Positions 11,096 to 64,000 of a stretch of 64,000 nucleotides of DNA are shown one piece after another. Every line of letters begins with the position of its first letter. Position 1 is the stretch's first letter. A program made the translations under genes and the position numbers. The notes under the pieces were generated by a model, which worked only from the letters and a program-made list of their open reading frames with translations, was not told where the DNA came from and ran no database searches. The stretch is from the NCBI GenBank assembly GCA_011033025.1, contig WFMF01000023.1, positions 124,001-188,000 on the forward strand, given 5' to 3'. The DNA is from Beroe forskalii. Lineage: Eukaryota; Ctenophora; Nuda; Beroida; Beroidae.

Positions 11096-11099
11096 ATCC

Positions 11100-12960: not shown

Positions 12961-12965
12961 GATTG

Positions 12966-13170: not shown

Positions 13171-13225
13171 GCCGCGGGGGGCTTGCCAGCCCCCTGATTA
13201 TTATTATTATATATTATTAATATTA

Positions 13226-13272: not shown

Positions 13273-13319
13273 TTTTTATTCCGCGGGGGGTTACCTCCCT
13301 GGCCAGGGAGGGAATCATC

Positions 13320-19300: not shown

Positions 19301-20160
19301 ATTCAAATCATGACAATGACATTCTCCCACCCGCCTGTATTTTGACGCATCCTCTCTGGGACCACAATAACCCTTGACGTATGGCACTAATATTTATTAC
19401 TTTTACTTGTAGGATGTCGCAAGGAATCCTGTCAAGGAAAAACAGGATGGGAAGGAAATGATTTAATTTCCCGAAAACGAGGCCCAGCGGCTAACTTAAA
19501 TAACTCCAGTGTAATTCTAAATAACCCTTAGAACTGATAAACAGGCCATGGGCTTCCCAATATATAAAACTGATGATTTTTGAAGGAGTACAAGTGTAGT
19601 AAAAGAAATATAGGCCATATTGCGAGGGTTATTAGAATCCGAATCAGTGATGCATGGAGAGAAATTAGGTTATATTAAACCGCAGATTCTTTAGTTCCAG
19701 CCACAAAGTCAAGGCTACTACCTAGCAATGTTATGTCATGAAATGCTATGAAATGCCGTCTATATTGCTGTTTAATTGCTCGAAACCTTTTCTGTATAAT
19801 ATATTTACGTCAAGTTATATTATGTAGTAAAGTCAAAGTTGTCACGTACTTTATTCAACATGGTCAAAAGTCATATTCCTGAATTCTGTCCAGGAATTGC
19901 AGAGTAACTTTAAACAAAACTTTGAGTCGGTTGCCAGATGATGTTTCTGTCAGTAGTGCTATAATAGCAATGTAACATTGTAACAACAGATTCTCTGTTT
20001 TACGCAAAATCAGTAACTTCAGTTCAAGTTTACTCTGGCCACTACACATATTTCAGTAAACAAGCCTAACTCTCGGCCGTGATAATTAACTGTGATTGTT
20101 ACCCGAGTTTAACTTCATGTTAAGTCTCAGGGAAGCAGTACATTCTACTGAATCTTATAA
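13320..20160. other. Long non-coding stretch
   Basis: No supported gene. I see TGACGTCA elements (15060-15105, 16345-16395, 16525-16580), a short (ttgaatcttgtca)x3 repeat near 16075-16122, a caccatggtaaccatggtaa tandem near 16235, and one weak exon candidate at 14573-14674. The rest is AT-rich unique sequence. Undetected upstream exons of the receptor gene could lie at its right end. Confidence 0.45.
14573..14674 (+). CDS. Very weak candidate terminal exon
   Basis: A pyrimidine-rich acceptor (cagcttcttcag) is followed by an open frame reading TLLNAYFGNSRAGIPLEG and ending in NSEFCS, then a TAG stop. The peptide looks protein-like and the acceptor is good, but there is no partner exon and no recognisable family. 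I include it only as a lead. Confidence 0.15.
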
Positions 20161-20465
20161 TGTGTTTCAGGTCGAATGGGCTAGGAATGTAAACTAGACT
20201 AACTCAGGTTCTAATGTGCTTCAGATCAAATGTTGCAGGAATGTCAGCAGGATTTACCCAGACAATATCCAGACAACTGTGCTACTGTCTCCTGTAGATC
20301 TATAGCTCCTGTCTCTGCAAGGGTCGGAAGACACGATCCAACCAGATATGATATTTTCAGATCGAATGAGATCGGAAATGGGTGTATCGTGCTATGCTGT
20401 TTCTCTCTCCTCCTTCCCTTTTCTCTACGATTAGCACTCCCTTGCACGGCACAGGCGTTATTCCA
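20160..20465 (+). repeat. Diverged edge copies of the 64-bp array and exon
   Basis: Upstream of the regular array lie older copies of the unit: ttcaggtcgaatgggctagg near 20167, cttcagatcaaatgttgcag near 20222, and ttcagatcgaatgagatcgg near 20355. The last is followed by ctctctcctccttccctttt, matching the start of the TM1-coding part of the real exon (tctcctcctttccctcctgg). The whole acceptor plus early exon was therefore copied, and copies decay with distance from the gene. Confidence 0.7.
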
Positions 20466-23400
20466 ATGTGTTTCAGATCGAATGGGATAGGAAGATGGAT
20501 ATCGCACTGGGCAGTGTTTGGTTATCCTAACATGTTTCAGATCGAATGGGATAGGAAGAAGGATATCGCGCTGGGCAGTGTTTGGTTATTCTAACATGTT
20601 TCAGATCGAATGGGATAGGAAGATGGATATCGCACTGGGCAGTGTTTGGTTATCCTAACATGTTTCAGATCGAATGGGATAGGAAGATGGATATCGCACT
20701 GGGCAGTGTTTGGTTATCCTAACATGTTTCAGATCGAATGGGATAGGAAGAAGGATATCGCGCTGGGCAGTGTTTGGTTATCCTAACATGTTTCAGATCG
20801 AATGGGATAGGAAGATGGATATCGCACTGGGCAGTGTTTGGTTATCCTAACATGTTTCAGATCGAATGGGATAGGAAGATGGATATCGCACTGGGCAGTG
20901 TTTGGTTATTCCTAACATGTTTCAGATCGAATGGGATAGGAATATGGATATCGCACTGGGCAGTGTTTGGTTATCCTAACATGTTTCAGATCGAATGGGA
21001 TAGGAAGATGGATATCGCGCTGGGCAGTGTTTGGTTATCCTAACATGTTTCAGATCGAATGGGATAGGAAGATGGATATCGCGCTGGGCTGTGTTTGGTT
21101 ATCCTAACATGTTTCAGATCGAATGGGATAGGAAGATGGATATCGCGCTGGGCAGTGTTTGGTTATTTTAACACGTTTCAGATCGAATGGGATAGGAAGA
21201 TGGATATCGCACTGGGCAGTGTTTGGTTATCCTAACATGTTTCAGATCGAATGGGATAGGAAGATGGATATCGCACTGGGCAGTGTTTGGTTATTCCAAT
21301 GTGTTTCAGATCGAATGGGATAGGAAGATGGATATAGCGTGCATGGCTGTGTTTGGTTATTCTAACATGTTTCAGATCGAATGGGATAGGAAGATGGATA
21401 TCGCGTGCTTGGCTGTGTTTGGTTATTTTAACGTGTTTCAGATCGAATGGGATAGGAAAATGGATATCGCACTTGGCAGTGTTTGCTTCATTCTAACATG
21501 TTTCAGATCGAATGGGATAGGAAGATGGATATCGCACTGGGCAGTGTTTGGTTATCCTAACATGTTTCAGATCGAATGGGACAGGAAGATGGATATCGCA
21601 CTGGGCAGTGTTTGGTTATTCCAATGTGTTTCAGATCGAATGGGATAGGAAGATGGATATAGCGTGCATGGCTGTGTTTGGTTATTCTAACATGTTTCAG
21701 ATCGAATGGGATAGGAAGATGGATATCGCACTGGGCAGTGTTGGGTTATCCTAACATGTTTCAGATCGAATGGGATAGGAAGATGGATATCGCACTTGGC
21801 AGTGTTTGGTTATCCTAACATGTTTCAGATCGAATGGGATAGGAAGATGGATATCGCACTGGGCAGTGTTTGGTTATCCTAACATGTTTCAGATCGAATG
21901 GGATAGGAAGATGGATATCGCACTGGGCAGTGTTTGGTTATCCTAACATGTTTCAGATCGAATGGGATAGGAAGATGGATATCGCGCTGGGCAGTGTTTG
22001 GTTATCCTAACATGTTTCAGATCGAATGGGATAGGAAGATGGATATCGCACTGGGCAGTGTTTGGTTATCCTAACATGTTTCAGATCGAATGGGATAGGA
22101 AGATGGATATCGCACTGGGCAGTGTTTGGTTATCCTAACATGTTTCAGATCGAATGGGATAGGAAGATGGATATCGCACTGGGCAGTGTTTGGTTATTTT
22201 AACGTGTTTCAGATCGAATGGGATAGGAAGATGGATATCGCACTGGGCAGTGTTTGGTTATCCTAACATGTTTCAGATCGAATGGGATAGGAAGATGGAT
22301 ATCGCACTGGGCAGTGTTTGTCTCCTCCTTTCCCTCCTGGCTACGGTTGGAAACCTCGCCTCCCTCATCTACGTTAAGATAAACTGGAATGTTGGAAACA
22401 AGGTAGGATCTATATGTTTTAAGTTACTACTCCCTAAATATATTTAGCAGAATACTTATCTGAAATATGCTGAGTCCAGACGGTAGCATTTTGTTGTACA
22501 TTTAATGCCAATCCTACTTCTACAGGAGTGCTATAACAAATCCTGCGATATATAGATATATACCTACTTACAGTGTTCTCAGGACTTCCTAATGAGAGCT
22601 ATTCTTCCTTTCTCTGGCTTCTTCGAGCTGTCAAACCAGCTAAATATATAACATACTTTGTAACGAAACATTACAATATAATAGCGCTCCTCAGAACTCC
22701 GGTATTATACATAAAAACCGGGCAACTTCCCTAAGATTCGCTCTAATTTTACCCGTGAGTTATGCGGCCTGTCCAACCCGGTGTGAAGTGCTATTCGGCC
22801 TGTAGGTTCCTCAGAGTCCTGGGAAATAAGTCTCATAAACCAGACAAGTCTCTGTGTGTGATCATCTCAAGAAGCTCAGACGGCTTCAAATCGGGGATTT
22901 AATGATTGGAGTTACTGACAATGCTCCATTGTTTGATAGGGCATCTCATCATTACTAATAGCAGGATTATTATCGGAAACGAATAAAGTATATTCTCCGC
23001 TACGGATTTTATTTTATTCCATCGAAATTCGAATGTTCTGGAAGGTAAAGGATCGTGGGATTAAATTATTTAAGAACTTTAGTTGCATGGTTGTCATTTA
23101 GATCTTATGGAGGCTGGTCGAGACATGAAATGTGAGAAAGTGTGGAGTGACTGTGTGAAAATATGCTAGTCACATATATACATTCATACACCGCTGTAAG
23201 TAACGACAACCTTCAAATAACACTATAAATTCATTAGTGACTTTGTTCACTTATTCACATAATATATTCAACGAACTCTCAACGGAAAGCTACCCCTGTA
23301 AAATCCCAAAATGATACCTTAGAAGTTATGGCCTATGCTGGTGTTTCTAATTGACATTCAACAATTCACACTTTCCAAAGAGACCGATTTAATCGAATAT

Positions 23401-26400
23401 TCTGGAAGGGAAGGATTCACTTATTTCTTTATTTCACATTCACTTAGTCGCACAATATGATACTTACTCAACAAACTCTCAACGGAAAGCTTCTCTTGGA
23501 AAACCTTCGGTAAAATAATGAAACTTTAGAAGTGATGGCCTATGCTGATGTTTCCAATTGACATTCGCTAATTCACACTTTCCAAAGAGACTGATTTAAT
23601 CGAATATTCTGGAAGAAGAAGGATCATTACTTCATTAGTGACAAAGTTCACTTATTTCACATTCAATTATTCACTTGGAGAGTGTTTTGAATATATGTAT
23701 GTTATAGGAGTGAGAATCCTTGGTGGTGTTTCCAATTGACATTCACGCTTTCCAAGTGGCACTATGATCGTTCACAAGCTTGAAAGACGCAGTCAAAATC
23801 ATATGCTGTTCAAACTCCCCTTATTTCTGAGAAAACATATCATTCCATATCTCATTTCAGAGGAAGACTAACCACACGCACCAAATGACTATGATCATGG
23901 TGATGAACATAGCCCTCACAGACCTTCTCAACGGTCTGTTCAGTGCTAGTTTCAATGCAGTCAACCTCTTCAGAGAGGACTACCCTGATCCAGAAACCAA
24001 GGTGAGGACTGACAATATAAATACAATTCCAAGGGTACCCTTTCAAGTAAATTTGAGGAGTTTACCTCCCAGTGTTGCCATGTCATCTATAAGTATTTCT
24101 TTGGCCATTTCTTATTTTTAACTTTTGATTTCTAACTTTTATATAGGGTCTGTCTTTACAAATGTAATTTGACCATATGAATTCTAATTCTAATTCTACT
24201 GTTCTAAAACACAATAAATTATGTACAACACCAAGGTATGTATGTGTGTTCTGAAAGCCACGAATTTCAGGGGCGAAACCGTAGGAAACAGAAGAAAACC
24301 TTTTTATACTTGTTGGAATTTATTCGAGCAAATTTCCAAAATCTGTCACAAAATGACTAGACACAACTTGCTGACTTGGGTCTAGCTCTCAAGGCAAAAG
24401 TCAACAAATTATGTCTTAGAAAGTGGAGTTGGATGGAAACGGTGGATTTACCATTTTGTAACTTCATTCATTTAAAATCAAACTCCGATTATTTCAGAAA
24501 CAACCATAGCTCCCTCATTTCAGATGATGTCGGTTTTGTGTAACTTCTGTGGACTATTAATCCACTTCATTTCAGATGATGTCGTTTTTGTGTAACTTCT
24601 GTGGACTAATCCACATCATTTCAGATGATGGCGTTTTTGTGTGACTTCTGTGAACTCATCCACTTCATTTCAGATGATGGCGTTTTTGTGTAACTTCTGT
24701 GGGCTCATCCACTTCCTAACGACCCGATCCAGCATCTTGTTAATGATGGCTCTAAGTGTGTTCCGGTACATTGCTGTCAAGAAGCCAACTCTCTGCTGCC
24801 ACAAGAGCTGCATCAAGGTATTTACTATTTTAATGGATTTAAATATACTCAAATAGTTCAGCTTTATAATGATTCAAATAGTTCTTTATTCTCAGAGGGG
24901 GATGGGCCGAAGCCCAGCGGATGGGAACAAGTCCCGTTCTTTTCCCAGGTCATCTGGCATTTTGATTGTCCAGTTTTATTGTCCAGAGTAGTTCGTAACA
25001 GTCCGTACCATGACAGAAACTCTTATTGACGCAGCAAGGGCACACCTTTAACATAGCTTTATTCAATGTCAAATTATAAAACTACCCAATCATCTTCTGT
25101 TGTAGAACAGAGGCTTAAACTGGTGTCAAGGTAGTGTCAACTTAGTGTCAATAGTGGTTTCAAGTAGTTTAACTGAGTCAATTTGATGTCATGAACTGAT
25201 CTTTTGATCACTTCGAACTATTTTACGGTTAAACTGTCGCTGTGCCGTCACTTTGAAATCTCTATGAAGTTACAACAGCTTATTATCATACACGTGGAAA
25301 GGGTTTATAATGTCACAAAGATATAAAGTGTTCTTTTATATGAAGGGGTACTTAAAGCTTCATTAAATGACATCCACTCCCAGTTAAATAAACTCGTCAA
25401 CTATATGTCAAATAAAGCTTTAGTTGCGTCGGTCATGGACTAATCATTGAAGTTGATCAGGTGCGGAACCTATACCAGCCAAAGCCGCTCATCTCAATTA
25501 AAACTTTAATCAAAGTTTCGCTCAGATCAAAGCCACTGCATTAGAAAGTTTAACATATTAATGTTTCAAGATCATCTGGTGGACTGTGGGCTTCTGTTGG
25601 ACCATCTCCCTGGTCCTCACCTTCATGCCCTACTACTTCAACACTCACTACATCTACTGGAGCGAGGTCTCGCATTGCACGTGAGTAATGAGCCGCGCAG
25701 TGCACGTGCGTAGTGCGCTGCGCATTGCACGTGAGTAGTGCGCCGCGCAGTGCTCGTGCGCATTGCGCATGAGTAGTGAGCCGCACGCGAACAGTAGGCG
25801 AGAGGAAGGATTAAAAGATCATAGCTCAGAGTAGAGAGTTGATCCGTCTATTGATTGAGCGCGACTTTAAAACATTAATCTATTTCTAACCTACTCAATC
25901 TCACCTACTTATTAAAACTCATTTCTCCAGAAATATTTAAATATTTCTCAAGACATTAATGAACAACCCTGCCCCCGTTTATATTTCTCAACAGTGCTGA
26001 AAGTAATGCTTTGAATATTTTACTTTAAATATTTTACTAAAAGGCCGATGCAATCAAATCATTAAACACAATCTAACCCCTGACAATACCTCGACACGTT
26101 CCACTACTCTAACCCCTGACATCTGAATCAGTTCACCATTCTAAACCCTGATAATGACGACAACCCCTGACAATACCTTGACACGTTCCACTACTTTTCT
26201 AACTTCAAACTCCATTTATAAGTTAATACTCGAACCCCAGCCCTACTTTTCCATTAATGCCTAACCACTCCCACTTATATACCAGGTTCCATTCTAAACC
26301 CCTGAAGACGACAACCCCCTGACAATGACGGACACGTTCCACTACTTTTCTAACTTCAAACTCCATTTATAAGTTAATACTCGAACCCCTGCCACAGGTT

Positions 26401-29400: not shown

Positions 29401-32400
29401 AGATTTTAATGTAAAATGTAATCCACCATGTCTGTCCGTAATTATCGTACGAATCAATGTTTTCTTGTTTTTTTTTGTCCAAGTCGTTGAATACTGCTAA
29501 CGACATTATTTGTTTACTGGAATACTGGAATCATAGTTCCAGTTAAAATATTGCTGTTTGATCACTATACGTTTTTTGTCTATGGTAACCGGTAAGTAAT
29601 CATCCCAACCAATATCGAGTTTGTTTTCATCCAAGATAGTAATTTGTTTCCGTTTAGTGTTTACACCCCAGTTCATGGAAATTTCAGTGTTTGCATGCAT
29701 CTCGCTAATGATTTTTCTTGCAACATTTCTTAATTGCGTAATTACTTAACAACTTAATTGCCTAATTACGACAACAGGAAAAACAGAAACAATGTTTGAA
29801 TCTGGGCACAAGATTACCTTGGGAAATCTTCTGAGCTTTCACGAAATAGACATAAATTCTCTCTTTTATCTACCGAATTTCATCTTTCCCTGACTTTAAC
29901 AAAAATGATTACCACTCTGCAACCTCAATATTATGGTTACAATAAATTTAGATAATATCTACCTAAGTCCTTAATAATATCAGTCTTTATTTTATGCTAA
30001 CAATTGCAATCTTTACCTCCCTTCTCTGGGCACTAACAATCTCTGCCAATTGGTGAAATGTGTCACGGTCGAGCAGTGTGAGGGCGTAACCTCTCTGACC
30101 CCTTTTAATGCTAATATGCTATGATCTGACCACCTTTTGTGCTAAAATCTGGCCCCCTTTTAATGCTAATATCTCTGTGCTATAAACTTAGAAGTCTCTT
30201 CTAGCACTAACACCCTCCCTCCTTCTAGAAGAGTAACAGAGAGGACAGCCTACACGCCAAGGCAGCTGTCTCGACCCTCCAGATCCTCCTGTTCTTCGTA
30301 TTCACTTACGGGCCTTGGTAAGTGTGATGTCATTATCAAGGGTTAAAGTGGGGTATTGATGACGTCATTATCTGGGGTTAGAGTGGGGAGTTGGTGACGT
30401 CATCATCAAGGGTTAGAGTGGGGTGTTGATGACGTCATTATCAGGGGTTAGAGTGGGGCGTTGATGACGTCATCATCAGGGGATAAGAGTGGGGAGTTGA
30501 TGACGTCATTATCTGGGGTTAGAGTGGTGAGTTGATGACGTCATTATCAGGGGTTAGAGTGGTGAGTTGATGACGTCATTATCAAGGGTTAGAGTGGTGT
30601 ATTGATGATGTCATTAACAGGGGTTAGAGTGGTGTATTGATGACGTCCAATTACTCTGAATTACCTTGGTTTTGCGTGATAGAGCATGGGTCTGGACAAT
30701 GGTAGAGGATTATAATCGCTATAATTACAGTTAATAGAACCACTGGTAGATCCTCCTCCTAGGTTCCTTCCCAGCTAATCAGCATATTCAGGAACATTCT
30801 AATTCTCCGTGAGAATAGTCCATAGCTCGCACATAATTTATATGCATATATAGAAGGGTCTTGATTAATCAAAAGAGGAGGGCCTAGCCGAATATTTTAA
30901 ATGTTATGAAGGCACATATATTGTTCATGGGAAATATAACAGCTTGGTGACGTCACCAATTCCCCATTATTTCACATGATAATGACGTCACTCTCAACCA
31001 CCTACTTTCCGTGCTGGGTAGTGAGTAGTGTGGGTAACCTATTGCGGGTGACGTTGGTAATAGCCAATTACTGGAGGGAGTGCTAATATTAGCTGCTATT
31101 AGGGGAGACACAGGGAACTGTAATATAAGCACTGGGTCGACTAGTAACTACTCACCTTGGGAGAAAAGGCTGATAAGATTTGGACTTGAGAAGGGTGAAA
31201 GGATATAAAAGGTTGTCTCTCACAAGATTACCTAATGCAATATGCACAGGGTCGAAAATTGACTGCTTGCCTGTGCTTGAGGAAATTTCAGACATGGTCG
31301 ACCATGATCACGAACTGCTTATGTCAGGCAGATGGTAAAATGGGTGATAGTACTTGGGTTAAGGCAGATGGTGATAAGAATACTGAATGGATATAGTTTG
31401 TCTCTCTCACAGGAGTAGCTATTGTCCTATTGTGAAGTTCATAGTAGGTGCTAAGTAGTAACAGTGTTATGATATAGGTTGTGAGTCACAACTTGTGACA
31501 ATGCATTATGCAAGGCATTGATAGTCAATGTGGGGCACAATTAAAGGAGATGTACAGGGTCGACAATTAACTGCTCGCCTGGGATTGAGGCAAAACCTGG
31601 GTGATAAGGATGGAGATAATGGAAATTTAAGACATTAGTGGTCTACCATGATCACGAACTATTTATCTAAGGCAGATGGTGAAATGATAATTTTAAATTT
31701 TCAGCTCTTCACTTCTCCTACGTGGGCAGATGTTGACCCTAAACGATGCTGAATGGATATAGTAGGTTTGTCTCTCACAGGAGTAGCTATTGTTCTATTG
31801 TGAAGTTCTAGTAGGTGCTAAGTAGTTACAATGTTAGGTCGTGACTATCTGACAATATGCATTATGCAAGGCTAGTGTTAGTCAATGTGGGGCACAATTA
31901 AAGGAGATGTAGGTAAGATACATAAACCAATGATAAACAATGCCAGATGATGTAAAATGGGGTGTACTAATTGGTACCAGGTGCCCATGAGGTGAGATAT
32001 GGCCCCAATTTAACTCCTCTGATTTACCCCTCTAAGTCTTATGACATGTGGATAGTATCTCTGATACTTTGACTTCTGAGATTGGAGTAACGCCCTGCCG
32101 AGTAGAGTGTTACATCTCTTAATATTTGAAGACTGAAGTAATTAAAATTTAAACCATACCTGCATGTAGGGGTCCAATCTCCCCTGAATTTTCAGCCTTT
32201 AACAAAAATTGAATCCCCTAATTCTTAGTTGGATAACATTTGAATTTGAACCACTTCTTATTTCCAGGTGGATAACGTCTCTGATCCACTATTTCGACAT
32301 GAACGGCTACGTGGCCTCTGAGAGTTGCGCTCAAGGACAGTTCCTGAGATGCACCTTGGGATGTGAGTGCGATTTACTATGTCAAGTATTTACGTTCTAG

Positions 32401-35077: not shown

Positions 35078-35120
35078 TTATCCAGGCTGATGCACTTGTT
35101 TCCGCTGAAGCTCCAATTCC
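35078..35120 (-). CDS. CNBD gene, tentative last exon
   Basis: Acceptor cgttttccag, then 14 codons including stop: W, then ELELQRKQVHQPG, then TAA. It fits the phase left by the preceding exon. It is short, so a longer alternative 3' end remains possible. Confidence 0.45.
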
Positions 35121-38100
35121 CTGGAAAACGTCTAAACGGACAGTCTAGTACATTTGTTATAATCCTATATTTAACAAATTCTGAAATAACTTGAAGATAT
35201 TTAAACATCAGCTATAAATAGAGTTTAATTATCTAACATTCCTATTGAATATGTTGTATAGTTATTAACATGATAGTTATTGCTTTATAGTTGCTGATTT
35301 CAACGACCTAAAGGCGTGTTAATGTGTGTCCAACTCTTCCGATATCTTGTGCCCTTAGGATAGACCCCTTCCATATTTATACCCCGGGCCCTAGTCTCAC
35401 AGCCTGCATTTAATGAGTCCTCAAACTTAAGAAAGAATTTAAGTTGTCGGATATAAGTCCTCAATATTAGAGTCGAGGCCGACAAGCCCATCGGCTGGTA
35501 ATGGTCAAATAAAGGTCTTGACTTCAGTCTAATGTGAGTCTTGCTCAATTTGCAGTGTCGCGAAAGTCTCCAATCTCAATTGGTCAAAAATTGTTGAAAT
35601 TCGAAATTGGAAAACAATAATTTTTTTAGAATCTCGTTGGAGAGTACCCTACCCCGCGCGCGCAACGCTCCACATTTGGACGGTCACTTGCTCTCTAAGG
35701 TCACATTTGATAGCCATCCATTCAGAAGAAATAAACGGGCAACGTCCGTCGAGATAGAATCAATAAGCACATACCACGAGGTTTGCGGTCTGCTGGCGCC
35801 TGGTTCCATTCGTTGGTGTTCTGTTGGAAGGAGTTCTGTTCCCCGTTCTGTTCGAGGACTTCCGCAAGGTTTCAGGTCCGCCACTGTTGGTTCGGCTCTG
35901 GAAAAAGAAATAATTAATTTTAGGATGACCTCAGTTATTTGCATACAACTTGTTTCTTTCGACAAAATATTTAAATTCTCAAGTGCCCTAACTGCGAGTG
36001 AGTCCCCTCTAAATTTGACTTGCGTCAGTGTCAACTGTCAAGCCAGATCTGTCAATTTTAATTGAGTTCTTAAAATTACAAATCGTCATGACACTGCCAA
36101 ATCAGCGAGCGAGTTGATTGGTCCTTATACTTACAGGGTAGCTTCTGACAGAGGCCCCTGACCGAGCGCTTTGGGAGGAGTGAGCGTGAGTTCGGGAGCT
36201 TGTCCCTATGGAGGAAATAATGATGTGTCAGCATGATTATGATTCATTAATTGAGACTTAAATTTAATTCAAAGTGTCGGTATAATGATTTAAATACTTA
36301 AATCGAGTCCTGGACTCCGGGAGTCCTGGGACATGTCGCTGCAGCGTATGATTGAATATAATTGAGTCCTGTGTTAACTGTCGGCGTACACCATTAAAAA
36401 GGTATGGAGGATAGTTAATTGAATTCAACAGAGGCGCCATTAATTTTGACAGTAGTAAAATTCGAAAGTTCCGAATCGGTATTCTGTGATCGTGACGAAA
36501 TAGTAATTTCATCTTACTTGAACGAACACGGCAACCGGCTGATAGCTTTCTCCTGATCTTTGTGACTTTCGTCAAAACTTTGACGTGTCCCTGAGATTAA
36601 TAATGATCGGTCTTATTCAATGAACATCATGATCAAAACGTTAATTAATGATGGAAGGAATCTTCATAGGCGTGTGCTCGCGCGCGCTTCTTTGAGAAAG
36701 CGCGCCGCGCAACGCAAAAAGGGATAGCAAGAAGGTGTTTAGCAAGAAGGAATCCATCTGCAGATTGAAAAACTTTTAACATTCTAGAGGAAACGTAAGA
36801 AAAGCTGACATAGTCATTGGCATTAGAACTTGACAAAACCTCGGTCTCTTACTCACGGACTTTACGATATAGATGAAGGGGGTGCTGTGGTTGGACTTGG
36901 ACAAAACATCGGTCTCTCACTCACGGACTTTAGGATATATATGAAGGGGGTGGTGTGGTTGAACTTGGACAAAACCTCGGTCTCTAACTCACAGACTTGA
37001 CGATATAGATGAAGGGGGTGGTGTGATTGGACTTGGACAAAACATCGGTCTCTTACTCACGGACTTTACGATATAGATGAAGGGGGTGGTGTGGTTGAAC
37101 TTGACAAAACATCGGTCTCTTACTCACGGACTTTACGATATAGATGAAGGGGGTGGTGTGGTTGGACTTGGCCATCACAGTGCCCTTTTTAAAGAAGTGG
37201 AAGTTGCAGACCCCGTTCACTTCACTCAGCAAGTTGACGGGCCAGCCGCTCAGAATGTTCAGAGTTCGGCAGTATCTGGTGAGGCAATGTTGGTTAGTGG
37301 TGGAGCGGGGAATCTGGAAGTTTAGATTTATGAACGTTCAACTATGCATGTAAAGCTGGCACTTGACTAACCTAATTCTACAATGTGAGGTATTTATAGT
37401 CTCCTCAGAGCCTAAAAGAGCGTTGCCCCCCTATATATCAAATTAGGATATTACCTGACATGTTCCCTCTCCTCGTTATATATCAAACTAGTACATAACC
37501 TGGCATGTTCCCTCTCTTCGCTCAGTTCGAGCGTTATATATCAAACTAGTATAATATTACCTGACATGTTCCCTCTCCTCGTCACTATATATTACCTGAC
37601 ATGTTCCCTCTCCTCGTCACTATCCAGCTGATTCATCTGCACAAAGTCCTCCTTATCCACCGCTATAAGCTCCACCCCATCCTTACAGGACACTGTGGCA
37701 GTGCGCCGCGTCCCGTGCAACAACGCCAATTCCTGAGATAGTAGGAAATAGATCAGGGATTCCAGCAGCAGCGTCAACTTCTGGAATAGAACTGTTCAGA
37801 GAGAGAGAGCCAGCTCTCGAGAGAGAAATGTGGATAAAGTGCTGTATCGCCAACTTCTGAAATAGGGAAATATAAAGCAGCACCAGTTCCTGATAGAGAG
37901 AGCCAACTCCTGGAAAAGGGCGCCGTGATAACGTGGCCTGGCACGGTTCAGGCGTTGTCAAATTACAATATTTAATACACGGCACTCCTTGCACGACACT
38001 ACGGCAGTGCGCCGCTGCGTGCCGTGCTGCAGCGGCCAGCTCTAGCTCCAGAGATAGTAAGAAATAAGGGATCGGGATTCGCGTGGAGGGGAGTTGATCG

Positions 38101-44100: not shown

Positions 44101-47100
44101 GGATTTAGAAGTTCCTGGGGGGGGGGGGGTGAAATTAGAAGTTCCTGGGGGGGGGGGAATTGGAAGTTCCTGGGGGGGGGGGGAATTAGAAGTTCCTGGG
44201 GGATTAGAAGTTCCTGGGGGGTGAAATTAGAAGTTCCTGGGAATTAGAAGTTCCTGGGGGATTAGAAGTTCCTGGGGGTGAAATTAGAAGTTCCTGGGGG
44301 ATTAGAAGTTCCTGGGGTGAAATTAGAAGTTCCTGGGGGGGGGGGGGATTTAGAAGTTCCTGGGGGGGGGGGGGGGTGAAATTAGAAGTTCCTGGGGGAA
44401 TTGGAAGTTCCTGGGGGGAATTAGAAGTTCTGGGGGATTAGAAGTTCCTGGGGGGGGTGAAATTAGAAGTTCCTGGGGGATTAGAAGTTCCTGGGGGGGT
44501 TAGAAGTCCCTGGGGGGATTAGAAGTTCCTGGGGGTGATTAGAAGTTTCTGGGGGGAATTAGAAGTTCCTGGGGGGGGGGTGAAATTAGAAGTTCCTGGG
44601 GGAATTAGAAGTTCCTGGGGGAATTAGAAGTTCCTGGGGGATTAGAAGTTCCTGGGGGTGAAATTAGAAGTTCCTGGGGGAATTAGAAGTTCCTGGGGGG
44701 AATTAGAAGTTCCTGGGGGGGAATTAGAAGTTCCTGGGGGGGGGGGGGTAAATTAGAAGTTCCTGGGGGGGGGTGAAATTAGAAGTTCCTGGGGGGAATT
44801 AGAAGTTCCTGGGGGGATTAGAAGTTCCTGGGGGTGAAATTAGAAGTTCCTGGGGTGCAGTTCCTGGGGGGGGGGGGTGAAATTAGAAGTTCCTGGGGGG
44901 AATTAGGGGGGAATTAGAAGTTCCTGGGGGAATTAGAAGTTCCTGGGGGTGAAATTAGAAGTTCCTGGGGTGCAGTTCCTTTGGGGGGAGGTGAAATTAG
45001 AAGTTCCTGGAGGGGGAATTAGAAGTTCCTGGGGGATTAGAAGTTCCTGGGGGGTGGGGGTGAAATTAGAAGTTCCTGGGGGGGGGGTAAATTAGAAGTT
45101 CCTGGGGGTGGGATTAGAAGTTCCTGGGGGGGGATTAGAAGTTCCTGGGAGGGGGGTGAAATTAGAAGTTCCTGGGGATTAGAAGTTCCTGGGGGTGAAA
45201 TTAGAAGTTCCTGGGGGGGGATTTAGAAGTTCCTGGGGGGTGAAATTAGAAGTTCCTGGGGGGGGGGGGAATTGGAAGTTCCTGGGGGGGGTGAAATTAG
45301 AAGTTCCTGGGGGGAATTAGAAGTTCCTGGGGGGGGGGAACGAAGTTCCTGGGGGGTGAAATTAGTAGTTCCTGGGGGGGGGGGTGAAATTAGTAGTTCC
45401 TGGGGATTAGAAGTTCCTGGGGGTGGGGGTGAAATTAGAAGTTCCTGGGGGGGGGGAATTGGAAGTTCCTGGGGGGGGGGGGAATTAGAAGTTCCTGGGG
45501 GGAATTGGAAGTTCCTGGGGGGGGGGAATTAGAAGTTCCTGGGGGAATTAGTTCCTGGGGGTGCAGTTCCTTTGGGGGGAGGTGAAATTAGAAGTTCCTG
45601 GGGGGATTTAGAAGTTCCTGGGGGGGGGGTAATTAGAAGTTCCTGGGGGGGAATTGGAAGTTCTGGGGGTGCAGTTCCTTTGGGGGGGGGAGGTGAAATT
45701 AGAAGTTCCTGGGGGGGGGGGGTGATTCGTTCTTTTGTAGTTTCCACTATGTGTCCAAAACGGAAATCGCACTTCGCTTGTTTTTGATTTATGGCACATG
45801 TTTTGATACATTTGCGTAGGGCGCGCGACAAAATCGTAGATAGAATATTGCTATTTCGCGCGGCGTGGGAGCTGGGCGTGTTGCTGCTCACTGGACAAGG
45901 CTACGCCTTGTTGGCAGAGGAAGGCCCGGAGAAGAGAGGTTAATTCGGGGCAGCTCAAAATGAGGAGCTGAGGGGAACATCCAACATAGATGCAGGGGAA
46001 ACCAGGGTTTCAAAGTCATATAATGTCTACAAGATTCGAGTTACTATATCCTCTTTCAATCCTGGGGTGCAGTGAAGTGGGCAGTGAAGTGGGCAGTGAA
46101 GTGGGCAGTGAAATGGAAATTGAAGTGGAAAGTGAAGTGGAAAGTGAAGTGGAAAGTGAAGTGGAAAGTGAAGTGGAAAGTGAAGTGGAAAGTGAAGTGG
46201 AAAGTGAAGTGGAAAGTGAAGTGGAAAGTGAAGTGAAAAATGAAGTGGAAAGTCTAAAAGTCGAGATTTACTTCAGTTACCCTGTAAAAAAGTAAAGCGA
46301 TCGCGACTACAATATCAAAAAAAACCCTGTGATAAGTAGCAAAAAGTGATCTTTCATCCCTCTATTACTCTATTATCTTCGATGGCTTACCCACAGATGC
46401 ATTCCACACTCACCAATCCACACTGACCATTAACTCGCACGCTGATTGGCCAATGTCATGATGATTCCAGAACCTTTCAGAACCACCGATATCAGGCACT
46501 TTATCATCACTATTAACTATTACTCGATTTCTATCGATGACGAAACAGAACTTACGATCAGGAGTCATGAAATCCAACATCAGATGTTTTAGAACATACT
46601 AATGGAGGCCGTTAAATGCACAACAGCATGCTAAAACACGGTGCTCTCCCCATTAGCGAAACCACTCGTAGCCCAGAGTTACATTTCATTGTCCCTATCG
46701 TTGTTTTGACTGTATTTGAGATTGTTGAAGATGAGACTCTGGATACACATCCTGGTTTACTTCACGGTGCTTTTTGTTCTTACAGGTGAGTAGTAGGGTC
46801 AAAATGTTATTCACCGATGCAATCATTGAGTTGAAAATTTTCTCTGGTTTTCAGAATAATAAAATGTCAACTTTCCCTATTCGGATACTCATGATATGTC
46901 CCTTGGACACTGACCAATCAGCAGGCAAGTTGATCGTCAACCCGTGCGGTGATTGGTAACTGTCAAAACGACAGTGACCATTTACGTCGCAGAAAAAAGC
47001 AGTTCCAAATTCCCTAATTTTCAGATTGTGGAAAGAAGAAGAAAGACAAGGAAGGAGAGGAAGAGGGTGCGGTGGATGAGGCTGTAGTCGAGGGGGAAGA

Positions 47101-50100
47101 GGTAGTGGAGGAGGAGACTGGCAAGAAGAGCAAAGGAAAAGGCAAAGACAAGGATACCGAATCCAAGAAAGAAAAGAACAAAGGGAAGGGTAAAGACAAG
47201 GAAGAAGAAGTTGGAGTTGAAGAGGTCGCAGAAGAAGACACGGGCAAGAAGAAGGGCAAAAAGGATAAGAACAAGGATAAAGGAAAGGACAAAGGCAAGG
47301 GCAAAGGAGACAAAAACAAGGGGAAAGGAGATAAAGACAAAGGAAAAGACAAAGGCAAAGGAAAGGGAGATAAGGGCAAAGGAGATGAGTCGGTAGTTGA
47401 GAATGTGATGTCTAAAAATGAAAAGAAAACGTGTGAGAAAGAGGAGAAGAATATCATCAAATGCGTGAGTGACGGAACCTACCTTCTCGAAATGGACAAG
47501 TACCCTTTCAAGGAGGAATTGATATCAGACTTGGTCAGTTCCAAAGACTACAAGAAAATGATCAACGCTGAAGTGGAAAAAATCGCCGATAACATCATCG
47601 ATGATTTCATGGACTCCAAAGAGTTCGAGCTGCACATGAAGGATATTATCGGGGAGTTTAACAGCACGACTGAAGCCCAGCAGATGGTCGAGGTCGCCGT
47701 GGCGGACGCACTTGAGAACGAGGTACAGGTTATTGAGGAGAATCTGGCACTGAACCTGGACTCCATCGCGAACACAGTCCAAAGCACCCTCACTGCAATG
47801 CAGGAGTTCGTTAAGAAGCTCCTGGCTCGGTCCACCGAAGTGAAGGGTCTCTACAGGACAGCAAGGAGCAGTGTGGAGGAGGCGCTAGCCACCACCGACC
47901 CTCCAACCACCCTCCCTCCCACCCCTCCAGTGAACACTTACACCGCCTTCCCGCCCCCCAACCCTCCGGAAGGGGGCCTGGCTACGAGCTACTGGCTCGG
48001 AAAGGACGGGGTTGACGACTTCGATAATATAATCTACGGTGGTAACACCTTCCCAGGGTATTACGAGAACGGGGGCTATTACAACGCGCAATTAGGACCC
48101 CAAATCCACAATTCACCCTACTACTACAGAGGAGGGGGCTATGGTGGTTATGGCGGAGGAGGTTATGGTGGCGGAGGTTATGGTGGCGGGGGTTATGGTG
48201 GCGGAGGCCTCAGAGGAAATAAATATTATGATAGCTTTGGAGGACTTGGAGGCTATGGAGGCTTTGGAGGCTATGGTGGCTTTGGAGGCTATGGAAATTA
48301 TGGCGGCAGTAACTTCGACAACAAACGAGGCGGCGGCGGCGGCGGCAGCGGCGGCGGCCACATCCAGCAGAGTCCCTACTACAGCAATAACAACTACTAC
48401 CACTACTACGCAGACGAACAGTTCGACTGGACCTCATACTACAGTAACAACGACTACTACGTGCAGACTGGGGACAGTCTGGAGGCCAACATGAACACCT
48501 ACTACAACCCTAAAAACTACTACGGAGACAGGTAATAGAGTCTACAAGGAGTGGTATAACTGGTAGACTAAAGTCTACAAGGGGTGGTAGAACTGGTAGA
48601 CTAAAGTCTACAAGGGGGTGTTTAACTGGTAGACTGAAGTCTACAAGGGGTAGTATAACTGGTAGACTAAAGTCTACAAGGGCTGGTATAACTGGTAGAC
48701 TAAAGTCTACAAGGGGTGGTATAACTGGTAGACTAAAGTCTACAAGGAGTGGTATAACTGGTAGAATAAAGTCTACAAGGGGTGGTAATTGGTATAGCTG
48801 GTAGACTAAAGTCTACAAGGGGTGTATAACTGGTAGACTAAAGTCTACAAGGCGTGTATAACTGGTACACTGAAGTCTACAAGGGGTGTATAACTGGTGG
48901 ACTGAAGTGGCAATAAACAAAATAAAGAGTCGTTCATCTTAAATCGCACGTTGAGAGACGTTTCTGGCCAGGGGTATAAGTTAGAGATTTTAGTGTCACA
49001 GGGTGATACAACTACCAGGGAAAAGATACTGCAAGAGGTGGTGCTTAGTAAGGGAATTGTGGCCTGAGAAACATGACTTACAAAGGTTTTAGTGGTTCAA
49101 TCGACTTAAATAATGAATCTTTTTTGATCGTAAGGAAAAATTGCTAAAAACTTATTCAGAAGCGAATAGGCCATGATTAAAGTCTAATCCAATGTTTTCC
49201 AGGTATTACAAAGGGTGGTATAACGAACTCTAACCCAATGTTTTCCAGGTACTACAAAGGGTGGTATAATGAGGACGGGTCTTTCGAGGGGGAGCTGAGA
49301 GACCCGCGCTTCCACGATGATTTGGAGTGGAATTCGGCTATCGCTGAAGAGTATTTCGACTACGGTTCGGACTACTGGCAGGGACCGAAGATAAAGAAGC
49401 AGGACATTCGGCAGTACGGAGCGGCGGCCCCCGCTCAAATGGGGCATAGAGAGCAGTACGGGGCGGCGGCCCCCGTGCAAATGGGGCATGAACAGCAGTA
49501 TGGTGCGCCGTACGACCGACCCCAGGGCGGCCCAGTGCAAAGTGCGGAGAGTAACAGGTACGGAGCGAAGCCACATGATAGATTCGCCAAAGGCAAGTCT
49601 CCTGGCCCACCAATTCAAATGGGTGAGGCGCCAAAGTATGGCGCACCAAATCCAAATGTGCAATATGGCGAACCAATTCGAATGGCTGATGCACCAAAAT
49701 ATGGCGCACCAAATCCAAATGTGCAATATGGCGAACCAATTCGAATGGCTGATGCACCAAAATATGGCGCACCAAATCCAAATGTGCAATATGGTGAACC
49801 AATTCGAATGGCTGATGCACCAAAATATGGCGCACCAAATCCAAATGTGCAATATGGCGAACCAATTCGAATGGATGATGCACCAAAATATGGCGCACCA
49901 AATCCAAATGTGCAATATGGCGAACCAATTCGAATGGATGATGCACCAAAATATGGCGCACCAAATCCAAATGTGCAATATGGCGAACCAATTCAATGGA
50001 TGATGCACCAAAATATGGCGCACCAAATCCAAATGTGCAATATGGCGAACCAATTCGAATGGCTGATGCACCAAAATATGGCGCACCAAATCCAAATGTG

Positions 50101-53100
50101 CAACATGGTGCTCCAATTCGAATGGCTGATGCACCAAAATATGGCGCACCAAATCCAAATGTGCAACATGGTGCTCCAATTCGAATGGATGATGCACCAA
50201 AATATGGCGCACCAAATCCAAATGTGCAACATGGTGCTCCAATTCGAAGGGATGATGCACCAAAATATGGAGCACCAATTCAAAAGCCCGATGCATCTCA
50301 GAATGGCCGACCAATTCAAAAGGCTGATGCATCTCAATATGGTGCACCAATTCGAAAGGTCAATGAACCTCAACATGGCGCACAAAGTCAAAAAGATCTG
50401 GGTGATGAGAAGAAAACAATAGAAATTGAAAAGTTCATGAAAGAAAAAAGCGAGAAGTATCTTAAAGATAAGGAAGTGGAAGCAACATCGGAAGATGACG
50501 AATCCGACTTCTTCAAGCGACTGAAGGATGACGTGGATGAGCAGGAAAGAGATCAGGACACCGCCCCGAGACAGATAGATCCCAAGCTTTTCCTTGGGTG
50601 AAAAATAGAAGTCGACGAGAGAACTACCTTGATGTGATTATTCCTCCATCTTGGTTTTGGAACATTAGAATTAGAATTAGAATGCATGTTGGGATTTGGT
50701 TAATAGACACTCTTCCATAGTGATCTGAATTCACGCCATAATTTCAAGGAATGGACCAACAGATTTTCTATAATGCTGTTTGATGGTAGCTTACTGTGGT
50801 CTTCAAGTGCATCTCAAATGAAAGATCTCGATGCTTCATCCAAATCTACCCCTTTTAGTAAAATATAAACTACTTTCGAGTGAAAATGTGTTTTATTGAA
50901 ATTAAAATGCCTTGGAACACTTTTGAATTTACTAAAATTTATGACGACAATTTTATTACCATCGCTTGGAATTTACTATTTTGCCAAATTACTAAAAATG
51001 CATTCAATCTACGGGGAGCAGAGTCTAATTTTCTCTATTTAGAAAATTTAAAAATTTAACTAAACATTTTTCAAAGTTGGGAAAATAAGATTTTGCCCCG
51101 CTCTAGAAGTCTAGATTTAATGGAAATTTTTGATAGATTATTTCACCTGCATTCCCAAGGGGTACTCCGCAAAAGTTTCGTAGGTTCTCAGAGCGAAGAG
51201 GACCTGTTGGATTTCCTCTTCTGTGCGATCTGCTGGTCTTTTACCCAGGATATCTTGAATATCTGAACCAACCACCAGTTCCTGAAAATATGTGCGGTGG
51301 TTCAGTCGATCGATTTTAGCGATAAAATTTCCAGCCCTTTCCTGAATTTGACAGTGACAGTTGGAACTGCAGTTTTGTGTGCGCTGCGTAAGTTTGCGCG
51401 GCGTAAAGACATTCAGGAATGTCATTCCCCACATGAATCAGTTCCTTGATTTTCTGTGCTTTGTACAGGGAAGGGTCGAATTCAGGCAGAAACCGCATCC
51501 TCTCAGGTTTATCAAAGAAGGACTGCTTTTCCTCCTGTTCTTGACCACTCGTCTCTACCACTCTACGTCTGAAATGAGTGGGTAAATAGTGATGACACTG
51601 GCCAATCAACGGGCGAAGTTACCGTGTACTCGGCGCTGATTGGTCAATGTCTGTTTCCCCAGAGGTTTGTTTTCGTTTTGACGTTTAGTTTTAAAATAGA
51701 GATATACTGGCACCAAACCAATTTGGCACCAAACCAAGTTGATTTTCAATTCCAGACAATTCATTCCATTTGGTTGTACGAGGTCAACCAATGACCCCGG
51801 TTGATACCTTTTAGACCTACCTAAATCTCATTCCCTACCATATCTGTCATACATGATCTTGTAGCATGATCTTCTCTCCTACTTTTCCCTAACTTAACCG
51901 ACATGAATTGATCAAGGTACAGCAATTCTGTACTGTGGTCAGTAGATAAAATACATCAAGATATCATTAAAGATATCATACATCATTAGATTTAGAAGTT
52001 TGACACTTTGACCTACGTTTTTCCTTCTCCAGAATAGAACATGAGGGCCAGCTGGATCAGTCGAGCCACTTTCTTAAACCGGTTCAACGGGGTAACCTGA
52101 AGTGTGACATGTCAGGCAAGTGTAGTGTCAATAAAGTGTGGTGTCAATAAAGTGTGGTGTCAATGTAAACTGGTGTCAATACTTAATGATGTGTGGTGTC
52201 AAGGTGAAATGGTGTCAAGGTAACCCGGTGTTTGGGTAAACTGATGTCAGAGAAGCGTGACGTCAAAGTATTACGCTGTCAAAGTAAAGTGGTGTCAAGG
52301 TTAACTGATGTCAAGGAAGCGCGATGAAAAGAAGAATGATGTCAAGGTAAAATGATGCAAAATAATTGTAAAAGATCGAGATGAAATCGCATCTAGTGTA
52401 CAAGAGTAGCGTGTCAGAATTATTAGTTCTCAGACTAACCACAGTTATCTTGGAAATTAAGGAAGACTTCAACTTCTTTCTCCATATTTGAACGATCGTT
52501 CGGCGTAAAATAACATCGACACTTCGCTTGGGAACAACTTTGAAAGCAGCGGAAGGCATGGTCGAACACAACTGAGAGTCCCTGAAATCTACTGAAATCC
52601 ACACACTATGAGGCAACTGAATGCCCCTGAAGTCTACTGAAATCCACACACAAAGAGGCAACTAAGAGCCCCTGAACTCTACTGAAATCCACACAAGCAA
52701 TGGTAACGAATCTCATCGCGTGCAGAATTTCAAGCTGGACACTGGACGGTGGATTGCTTGTTACGACTAATTAAAGTTGTCATTGTAGTAGTCAACTGTG
52801 TAGTACACGCGACAAAACGAGCCAATAATTCGGACACACGACAGCAAAATATGATGTCCAGGAGAATGTTATCAAGGACACTTGGTGTCAAGGTAAAATA
52901 ATATGATATCAAGGGAGGGAACTTGGTGTCAAGTAAACCTGGTGTCAAGGCAAAATGATGTCAAGAAAGTGTGATGGCAAGGTAGAAAGTATGGTGTCAA
53001 TGAATTGTGGTTTCAAGGAAGTGTGGTGTCAAGGAAGTGTGATGTAACGGTTAGAATGGCACGTCAAGGTAATATAATGTAAAGGGTGTGTGGCGTCGAA

Positions 53101-57398: not shown

Positions 57399-58024
57399 GG
57401 TGCAGAGATATCAAGTTAGTTAGAGTGTCAGATTCACCAGGGACAGGATGTCACCAGACAAAAGTAGAAAGCGTCAGCAGTCAGTGTTCTGGGTCAGCTC
57501 GATTAGTGTGGGAATGGCTCTTGTATCATTAACGCACTTCTAAAAGCCCTCATGATGACGTCACTCTCATTTACTCATCAAATAAACCACATCATTACAA
57601 CCTCAAATCAGTTGCTCATTGTACACCATGAGGATACACCTAATTCTCTAATTAGCAATCATACTTTCATCTGGCTACAACAGATCTCTGCAGATTTAGC
57701 AATCTGTAACATGATCGGATTTGAAGATGGCCCGATAAATGTATACTTTTAGGCCCTTCAATGGTTCATAAACCCGCTAAAATTTGATGACGCATTGTAT
57801 AAACCCTCGAGCTTATATAAACGATAATCTCTCAGTCTACGCTCTCGGGTTTTTCAGTTGTGGCATTAACTTAGAGAGGATAGAGCAGTTACTGTTACCG
57901 CTGACTATCAAACACTCAAACACACAACAACACGTTGCTCAACATTTTGAACCTTATTTCAAATAAAATTGATGGCCAGAATGCGCGGAAGAACTAGATA
58001 AGTCGCCTAAAAAGCCTTACTCAC

Positions 58025-58076
58025 CTTCTCGGCTCCAAGACGAGATCTACTTCGTTTCTTCTTCGAGTCGTTATCA
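58025..58076 (-). CDS. Upstream gene exon 3
   Basis: Acceptor accctttcag, donor gtgagtaagg. Completes a Ser codon and encodes DNDSKKKRSRSRLGAEK-like basic sequence (17 codons). Confidence 0.6.
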
Positions 58077-62100: not shown

Positions 62101-62160
62101 GGTATGTCATAATCTATCCCTTCATAGATACCATAAAAAAGGGAGTATGTATACTTTCGG
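59135..62160. other. Intergenic, AT-rich
   Basis: No exon is supported. I see a 50-base direct repeat near 59890-59985 (gatatattcaggtaatcagt, twice), a cagtagagaattgctgtag hairpin near 60545, a ggtacgtaccgtggtacgta repeat near 61277, and the hairpin at 61828-61918. Confidence 0.55.
61828..61918. repeat. gtaatacggt / accgtattac palindromic repeat
   Basis: Outer arms gtaatacggt and accgtattac, inner taataatg / cattatta, and a central gccccgaaggggc hairpin. A MITE-like foldback whose core resembles the GC hairpins at 12966-13170. Confidence 0.65.
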
Positions 62161-62163
62161 TGA

Positions 62164-62275
62164 CAGTTCGAACTTGAGTTTTGTGTGTGCGGCGTAAGTT
62201 TGCGCGGCGTAAAAATAATATATAAATAGCATGTTTGTACGCCGCGCAAACTTACGCGGCGCCCACGAAACTGCT
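62164..62275. mobile_element. cgcggcg-hairpin MITE copy (full length)
   Basis: gtgacagttcgaacttgagt, then tttgtgtgtgcggcgtaagt and ttgcgcggcgta, mirrored by tacgccgcgcaaacttacgc and ggcgcccacgaaact. It lies about 70 bases upstream of the SRCR gene start codon, so it could form part of its promoter or 5' UTR. Confidence 0.8.
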
Positions 62276-62342
62276 ACTTTTTACCTATTTAACGCCCTTT
62301 TCGATACAATCAAAGCAGAGCAATGCTGGTGAATTGAGAGCC

Positions 62343-62409
62343 ATGATTTTAGTTGGATGGGCCTTCCTGCTCCTTGTGGCAGATGCACACGCAGATTACA
62401 TAACCGACT
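62343..62409 (+). CDS. SRCR gene exon 1: signal peptide
   Basis: MILVGWAFLLLVADAHADYI followed by TD, donor gtgagt. The hydrophobic core and the Ala-His-Ala cleavage-like end make a good signal peptide. The frame is open further upstream through the MITE, but this Met is the first that gives a clean leader. Confidence 0.82.
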
Positions 62410-64000
62410 GTGAGTTAAATCAATTAGTTTCTCCTCCTTTTAGCCAGTAGGGCTTGCTAATCAGAACAGTCAAATTCATTGATATTTTGTTGTATTATGT
62501 TATGTTCTAATGTATTAGACAAAAAATGATGTAATTTCAAACAACTCCAATCTCAGTCTCACATCCTCGCAGTCACGGCGTTTGAAATTGTGAATGGCTT
62601 TTGGGGTCAGGTTCCCGAAAACGAACCTGGACTGCTATTTTACAAGAGTGGCACAGTAAGTTACGACAGTAATTGGGGAATGTCCACAATAGCCAGGTCT
62701 ATTTGTCAAAGCGTGTACGGGAAATCTGGCCCCTTCGCTCCAACATGGTACCTACATGGTGAAGACGCCTCAGCCTGGACTATGCTACAAGGAGCGTCCC
62801 AGGAAAATTGGCAAGACGCGTATTGCCAGGGTCACAGTACAATTTCTTGCTACATAACGCCACAAGACCCTGCAGAGCCAGTTGCTCACTCGGAGGACAT
62901 TTTCTTGAAATGCAATGGTAAGTTTCCTGACACGTTTTCCACAGCAAATCCCATATATTTACATGAAATCAGTAGATTCCATGTCCTCTGGATTTCTCTT
63001 GAATGTAGCCGTTTTGGGCTTGTGCCAAAAAGCCTGAAGGGGTAGTTCCTCAAAGTTTTCGGAAGCCCCATTGAGTATGATCAGGGAATCGAACCCAGGA
63101 TCTACGATCACGAGCAAGACTTCATACCATCTATTGGCTGTATTCACCAGGTAGTGTAATGTCTTCGTTTCAGATGAAAACCTATTCACACGAGTAGGCA
63201 GAAATAGTGAACAAGTAACAGCTAAAAACGAAGAAGGGGCACTGCTATTCAAGGAGAACAACATAGTGTGCACTAAAGACTTTGGCTATAATGAGGCGTA
63301 CATGGCCTGTACTGAGTTGGGATTCACAGATCTTGACAACATGGCCTGGCACTGCGGTGAAAAATACAGGACTAACGAACTTTATACACTGTATGGTCTA
63401 GATTGTCCGACTTATGCCACCGCCATTGGTGACTGTGATTACTCGTTATACTTTGAAGCTTTAGAGACAACGAAAGACGTTCTGTATCTTATCTGTGATG
63501 GTGAGCACTTTTCTTATCTGTGATGGTGATATGATTGCGTAGATAATCAATTCACTTGTAACGTCTTCAATAGTCTCAATCATCAAGAAGTGAGCCCAAG
63601 ACCTCACTAAAATGGTATTCAGTAATTTGACCTAACTGGACTATTGGCCTAAAGGCCTAACACTGGTTGGGGTCAGGGGATAGATAATTTCAAAATTGTA
63701 TGCATTTTAGGAGTTAGGCCAAATGACCAAGAACCCTCTGAAATGAGTGCCCTGCTGACCCACCCCACAGTTACAGGTGCTCCTGTCCCTGCATTCACCT
63801 TGGAAAAAGAGGACAAGTCTGCAGGCTCGGAGACAGAGGAAGGCCTGCTCCTTTTCAGGGGAGGCGCAGTCTGTCAGTCTGATTTTGATAACAATGATGC
63901 GCAAGTTATATGTGCCACCTTGGGTTTTCCGGAGCCCCACACCAACTCAGCCTGGCACCACGGGTATAAGTGGCCCCAGCAGGTGGAATACGGGAAAAAC
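62343..64000 (+). CDS. Secreted SRCR-domain protein, 5' part (overall)
   Basis: Four exons are visible and the gene runs off the right edge. A signal peptide is followed by at least three cysteine-rich SRCR-like segments, one per exon: FYKSGTVSYDSNWGMS with AYCQGHSTISCYI and EDIFLKCN; GALLFKENNIVCTKDFGYNE with ACTELGF and LDCPTYATAIGDCDY; and GLLLFRGGAVCQSDFDNND with AQVICATLGF. The last two match the SRCR pattern (G.VC...F....A.V.C..LGF), and all junctions are phase 1. One-exon-per-domain with phase-1 borders is typical of extracellular mosaic genes. SRCR proteins act in recognition, adhesion or scavenging at surfaces. The specific role here is unknown. Confidence 0.85.
62573..62917 (+). CDS. 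SRCR gene exon 2
   Basis: Acceptor acatcctcgcag, donor gtaagt. 114 codons reading TAFEIVNGFWGQVPENEPG, LLFYKSGTVSYDSNWG and ARSICQSVYGKSG, ending HSEDIFLKCN. A diverged SRCR-like domain. Confidence 0.82.
63040..63165 (-). mobile_element. tRNA-like SINE in SRCR intron 2
   Basis: The minus strand reads ccaatagatggtatgaagtc and then gatcctgggttcgattccct (perfect B box GGTTCGATTCC). Compare the 33628-33710 copy. It is not a foldable tRNA. Confidence 0.55.
63174..63500 (+). CDS. SRCR gene exon 3
   Basis: Acceptor gtcttcgtttcag, donor gtgagc. 108 codons reading DENLFTRVGRNSEQV, NNIVCTKDFGYNEAYMACTE, LGFTDLDNMAWHCGE and ending DVLYLICD. The exon end plus donor is repeated 25 bases downstream. Confidence 0.85.
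63501..63535 (+). repeat. Donor-site echo after SRCR exon 3
   Basis: tcttatctgtgatg|gtgagc is repeated as tcttatctgtgatg|gtgata, with donors at 63501 and 63526. Confidence 0.85.
63771..64000 (+). CDS. SRCR gene exon 4 (partial)
   Basis: Acceptor cccaccccacag, phase 1. It encodes VTGAPVPAFTLEKEDKSAG, GLLLFRGGAVCQSDFDNND, AQVICATLGFPEPHTNSAWH and continues past the window edge. A second AG six bases in (ttacag) is possible. Confidence 0.85.

Follow-up and report, generated by a model that had tools for sequence, protein, structure and literature searches.

Segments that span splice junctions are copied in tandem into the adjoining introns of several genes in the window (the whole 64,000-nucleotide stretch analyzed here, C281:124001-188000 of assembly G000, which comprises 216 Mb in 1134 contigs). 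Judged by its sequence, the pattern appears to be of a kind that has already been described and named, the "mirages" of amphioxus. We consider it probable that these echoes are minisatellites that happen to span junctions, products of random tandem duplication that have been tolerated in a repeat-rich genome. Our counts do not demonstrate a process directed at junctions, although they are compatible with an enrichment there of several fold.

Junction-spanning copies in the window

The window holds a rhodopsin-type receptor gene (joined exons, Pfam 7tm_1, E = 2.5e-14), a minus-strand gene with a cyclic-nucleotide-binding domain (CNBD; joined exons, Pfam cNMP_binding, E = 1.1e-15), a plus-strand repeat-rich (matrix-like) gene nested inside the latter, and an SRCR-like gene (Pfam SRCR, E = 3.3e-5, 24.6 bits, below the curated cut-off of 26.1). 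The long open frame of the nested gene (47018-48532) gave zero Pfam family matches, and an Rfam search of 114 kb (the window plus loci L037-L041) gave no matches. Exons were called with a gene finder whose first training set was 28 kinase coding segments and whose later training used its own output; these models are predictions and differed from one training to the next. Two sites missing from the gene-finder output, acceptor 52571 and the SRCR donor, were placed by reading the sequence. Receptor exons joined at their exon-proximal sites form one open frame across the first four and likewise across the last four; an exon linking these two sets was looked for and not found.

For each of 12 boundaries at which an earlier note on this DNA had claimed echoes, a copy was sought in as much as 1.5 kb on the intron side, with 200 dinucleotide-preserving shuffles of the searched sequence as the control. 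The local copy beat 200 of 200 shuffles at 10 of the 12, comprising seven acceptors, one of them with a remote copy (22277, 24674, 32553, 37732, 39936, 49249 and 52571), and three donors (25680, 37128 and 37596). Acceptor 32268 was a borderline case, its 21-base copy being 81% identical and equalled by 5 of 200 shuffles. For donor 63500, 25 of 200 shuffles were equally good because the query gave the copy no room within the first 20 intron bases; by direct reading, CTTATCTGTGATGGTGA at 63488 is repeated exactly at 63513 (17 bases). The central claim, echoes at splice junctions in several genes, is therefore confirmed, with 32268 as its marginal case (Table 1).

Table 1. Copies of splice junctions and associated arrays in the window
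Feature	Junction	Exon bases in copy	Position	Strand	Basis
64-bp unit, 28.8 copies	acceptor 22277	44	20469..22320	+	TRF, shuffle test
49-bp unit, 4.0 copies	acceptor 24674	42	24515..24715	+	TRF, shuffle test
25/50-bp unit	donor 25680	10	25671..25768	+	TRF, shuffle test
Remote non-tandem copy	acceptor 32553	20	31693..31724	+	shuffle test, reading
68-bp unit, 5.1 copies	CNBD donor 37128	43	36828..37171	-	TRF, shuffle test
35-45 bp units	donor 37596	22	37432..37623	-	TRF, shuffle test
Six degenerate matches to acceptor core	acceptor 37732	44 (gapped, 74% identity)	37724..37916	-	unit matching vs C1116
CCCCAGGAACTTCTAATT-type array adjoining acceptor	acceptor 39936	4 (common)	39933..40625	-	TRF, shuffle test
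Remainder of CCCCAGGAACTTCTAATT array, ~3.2 kb away	acceptor 39936		43838..45669	-	TRF; continuous in C1116
33-bp unit, 11.1 copies, adjoining donor	donor 48531 (nested gene)		48539..48908	+	TRF
46-bp tandem duplication	acceptor 49249	24	49183..49269	+	self-match, shuffle test
45-bp unit, 2.8 copies	acceptor 52571	3	52569..52695	-	TRF, shuffle test
Exact 17-base repeat, 2 copies at 25-base spacing	SRCR-like donor near 63500		63488..63529	+	direct reading

Some particulars of that claim needed amendment. The copied exon part, put at 10-45 bases, agrees with this at eight of the ten junctions and falls short of it at 39936 and 52571, so that the range is 3-44. Tandem copies in the adjoining intron are found among the ten except at 32553, whose copy is remote and sits in the intron before, on the far side of exon 32268-32362. 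The echo at 37732 beats all shuffles, but its copies within the window are few and degenerate. The CCCCAGGAACTTCTAATT (poly-C) array at 39936 is the largest, and its large size is borne out by 106 matched copies in the window; it is not one block, being divided into two parts about 3.2 kb apart. At the receptor acceptor the last copy of the 64-bp array extends into exon 22277-22402, and the 35-bp unit of the 37596 array can be read as starting with GT and ending with AG. In six tandem cases for which the exon part was compared with the unit it was the shorter (44/64, 42/49, 10/25, 43/68, 22/35 and 24/46), which fits the requirement that one copy be tolerated.

Echoes of this kind are also present at other loci of the genome, as the note had expected. 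At about 2430-2760 of L004 (on contig C791) lies a donor array in which CAG-GTAAGC is repeated about every 41 bases; in L042 a donor is copied twice more and an acceptor once, and in L039 a donor is copied once (all by eye). The L004 copies join GT to an exon-like AAGC, giving GTAAGC, which is nearer the donor consensus than the last donor, GTATAG.

Comparison with a second contig

Contig C1116 is 19,764 bp long, and its positions 1-18000 (pieces L052, L053 and L054) were compared with the window. It is collinear with the window from 54.0 to 37.9 kb, with aligned blocks 75-94% identical (lowest in the poly-C array), and it contains four of the six exon seeds searched for, at 92-100% identity. 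The seeds for 37596 and 37128 were not found in C1116 1-18000; both lie outside the collinear part. From this similarity C1116 is probably a second, highly diverged haplotype of the window locus, though it may be a recent paralogue and not the other haplotype.

The two contigs differ in both the presence and the number of copies. Acceptor 49249 has two copies in the window and a single copy in C1116, and next to donor 48531 the 33-bp unit is present in 24.7 copies in C1116 vs 11.1 in the window. The repeat at 52571 is a 35-bp unit in 2.7 copies in C1116 vs a 45-bp unit in 2.8 copies in the window, and the poly-C array is continuous in C1116 vs two parts in the window. For acceptor 37732, 42 matched copies of a 41-bp unit were counted in C1116 vs six degenerate cores in the window; all but one of the 42 lie in an array of at least 41 homogeneous copies that is still running where the compared piece ends, and the 37732 exon is not intact beside this array. 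These differences suggest that junction-spanning duplications vary as other minisatellites do.

Junctions against the local-repeat background

Local repeats, defined as ungapped self-matches with a score of ≥14 and a shift of 10-1500 after removal of low complexity, account for 22% of the window; in five 10-kb stretches the share ranges from 1% to 39%. Block shuffles of those six sequences yielded 0 or 1 match each. The junction sample came from 336 kb (0.16% of the genome), made up of the window, three stretches of 50 kb each and 33 small loci. Spanned junctions in a first count numbered 6/59 in the window (intron interior 0.20), 1/91 in C1 (0.042), 5/35 in C358 (0.132) and 4/38 in C691 (0.071). 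Three loci representing duplicate or overlapping places (L002, L005 and L006) and the C1116 pieces were dropped before counting, as were exons of >60 bp with more than half repeat, exons below the score limit, and junctions without a usable intron flank.

In a point-coverage test, a point had to be spanned with ≥8 bases on each side; control points lay in the introns of the tested junctions, 30-400 bp from the exon. With an exon score of ≥10, 12 of 219 junctions were spanned vs 16.3 expected (ratio 0.74, 95% bootstrap 0.41-1.14), and five other settings over all sequence gave 9-13/219 vs 12.4-18.0. Outside the window the counts were 9/207 vs 10.5 (score 8) and 6/178 vs 8.4 (score 10); five of those nine spanned junctions came from L004, a single array in which some predicted exons are probably false, and without it the count was 4/202 vs 6.45. 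Six spanned junctions of the first count were later missing, four of them (C358 3203, 12145 and 12469, and C691 1471) because retraining no longer predicts them and two (C691 33670 and 33733) because the repeat filter removed their still-predicted exon. Of the four no longer predicted, C358 12145 and 12469 appear to be true exon edges. Because of these missing junctions both this test and the one that follows were rerun with earlier gene models for the three stretches, which outside the window gave 12/226 vs 11.9 and 10/209 vs 8.4 for point coverage.

Coverage was 1-2% in exons, about 5% (4-5%) at junctions and 5-10% in introns, a step from exon to intron with no peak at the junction. The comparison with exon interiors that the earlier note had suggested does place junctions (about 5%) above exon interiors (1.1% of points spanned by a local repeat), but it is badly posed and cannot show a special process, because duplicating an exon interior in tandem puts the extra copy into the exon itself and should be selected against; junctions are therefore expected to exceed exon interiors even with no special process at work. 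The point-coverage control alone is too lenient, as an exon can hold just one unit of a tolerated array.

For that reason a geometry-matched control counted the terminal repeat unit only. Over all sequence, 8/219 junctions were spanned vs 2.92 expected (ratio 2.74, CI 0.95-5.92), or 9/254 vs 3.06 at score 8 (CI 1.15-6.39). The window itself gave 5/41 vs 1.06 (CI 1.21-15.4), and 5-8/47 vs 0.8-1.8 at other settings; having been preselected for showing echoes, it supplies five of the eight spanned junctions, so that only figures from outside it are unbiased. Those were 3/178 vs 1.86 and 4/207 vs 1.95 (4/207 vs 1.3-3.1 at other settings), 3/202 vs 1.95 and 2/175 vs 1.86 for the later models without L004, and 5/226 vs 2.13 (CI 0.53-6.0) and 5/209 vs 1.50 (CI 0.86-8.2) for the earlier models. 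The outside-window counts lean towards a modest junction excess, every bootstrap interval containing 1 and the upper limits lying at 3.8-8.6 fold by setting. These results weaken the claim of no excess that point coverage would suggest.

Origin of the copies

If the echoes are minisatellites that span junctions by happenstance, duplications would arise more or less at random, local repeats being observed to be frequent in introns. A duplication that includes a junction would leave an intact exon and splice site at the exon end, namely the last copy at an acceptor and the first copy at a donor. With the exon-proximal site in use, the mRNA would be unchanged and the array tolerated like other intronic repeats, and duplications internal to exons would be removed. 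The arrays would then lengthen or shorten by unequal exchange or slippage. Constraint on the exon, by slowing the divergence of one copy, may contribute part of any junction excess.

The chief competing idea is that junctions are real hot spots, where short tandem duplications are formed or retained at several times the rate of comparable intronic points. We regard this as unlikely, and quite unlikely in the specific form, raised by the earlier note, of duplication seeded at splice junctions; co-transcriptional breaks or R-loops would be examples of a cause. Seeding would account for the excess in the geometry-matched counts, which is about 2.7-3 fold when all sequence is taken and 4-5 fold for the window, and the 5/209 vs 1.50 obtained outside the window with earlier models also speaks for it. 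Nevertheless, the window was chosen for its echoes, the unbiased outside-window intervals (as for 3/178 and 4/207) include 1, the count without L004 falls to 2/175 vs 1.86, and the coverage profile lacks a junction peak. Slower decay of an exon-constrained pair would itself raise the ratio, perhaps up to two-fold. The note's other proposal, that the copies are decoy splice sites selected to tune the splicing of these genes, fares worse and is barely credible. Although the splice AG is intact in 26/26 matched copies of the 64-bp array and in 42/42 of the 41-bp unit in C1116, most other columns of both units are equally intact. In the poly-C array AG falls below the median column in the window (98.1%, 106 copies) and is among the worst columns in C1116 (82% and 81%, 94 copies). 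Splice dinucleotides are thus no better kept than other columns, and the three arrays gave no consistent signal of selection on them. The 49249 copy, moreover, is missing from C1116, and of nine unit lengths only 45 is divisible by three (the others being 64, 49, 46, 41, 25, 68 and 35, and the 25-base spacing at 63500), so that a switch to another copy would cause a frameshift.

Some echoes could be remnants of intron gain under the Rogers model, in which a coding segment bearing AGGT is duplicated in tandem. In its favour, the array at the start of intron 48532-49248 (the 33-bp array of Table 1) contains a copy, 18/19 identical, of the first bases of the exon that follows at 49249; 0 of 2000 shuffles did as well. 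That copy, however, does not directly follow the donor GT, the 3' end of the intron is by eye unlike the end of the upstream exon, and the other junctions repeat their own exon edge, an outcome the model does not predict; we think this origin very improbable. Arrays of near-identical units are also prone to mis-assembly, yet an assembly artefact is scarcely plausible here, since the array copies differ from one another, the same arrays occur on two contigs at different lengths, and several cases are simple two-copy duplications. Introner elements (dispersed copies with splice sites) were rejected from searches of two units: all 29 of 29 genomic matches of the 64-bp unit are on C281, and the poly-C unit has 155 genomic matches which, among the matches listed, are all on C281 and C1116.

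Relation to known systems

According to two reports (PMC3087553 and PMC3902484), mirages are minisatellite-like tandem duplications of 5' and 3' exon-intron boundaries in amphioxus, found in genes for globins (BflGb6 and BflGb9), Adh3, troponin C and PGBD5. AG/GT is retained in many copies, and the BflGb6 mirage has six vs three units in two haplotypes; regular splicing is reportedly left undisturbed (PMC3087553). The window resembles amphioxus in having tandem repeats that span both 5' and 3' boundaries, in keeping AG/GT (AG 26/26 and 42/42; CAG-GTAAGC in L004) and, if C1116 is the other haplotype, in haplotype length differences. Units are of about 19-68 bp here vs 150-160 bp in the amphioxus globins and 10-72 bp in Adh3. 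A limited literature search found no further reports of "mirage" minisatellites beyond these two.

Among related cases, human segmentally duplicated genes carry minisatellites with units of about 30 bp at exon-intron boundaries (PMC2812944), and such internal tandem repeats are reported to form novel introns and alternative transcripts, whereas the present copies are known from sequence alone. A tandem duplication across an intron-exon boundary formed a new intron in another case (PMC4974935), where, as here, a boundary was duplicated, unlike the copies described here, which lie within an existing intron. Junction arrays may be regarded as a plausible route to new introns. The window and its counterpart would add a mirage-dense region and a contig pair differing by one junction duplication, together with a simple account of why junctions, and not exon interiors, carry mirages. 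Applied genome-wide, a geometry-matched control could decide the junction hot-spot question, and complete splice-site arrays beside an intact reading frame would serve as natural tests of exon-proximal site choice. Turri et al. are said to have reported in 1995 that a minisatellite gives multiple splice donors in the interferon-induced gene 6-16, its repeat unit reportedly holding a donor site, as here, with alternative donors used there.

Other repeats at the locus

A 35-bp minisatellite unit containing TGACGTCATTATCAGGGGTTA occupies 30325-30647 and runs from 32640 onward, directly downstream of donors 30317 and 32640, and is dispersed genome-wide (745 + 788 matches with ≤1 mismatch; control 0). 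As a source of the junction echoes it was set aside: where seen, it lies beside donors and does not span them. A TGACGTCATTAT stretch related to this unit follows the CNBD exon in C1116. The segment of about 3.2 kb that splits the CCCCAGGAACTTCTAATT array (40627-43836) includes a 22-29 bp repeat array at 41389-42815. A 12-bp repeat in 15.2 copies (46071-46253) lies within a predicted coding start, and for the stretch of about 46018-46304 C1116 has almost no counterpart. Within the nested gene, a 63-bp repeat at 49609-50285 has 10.8 copies vs 11.7 in C1116.
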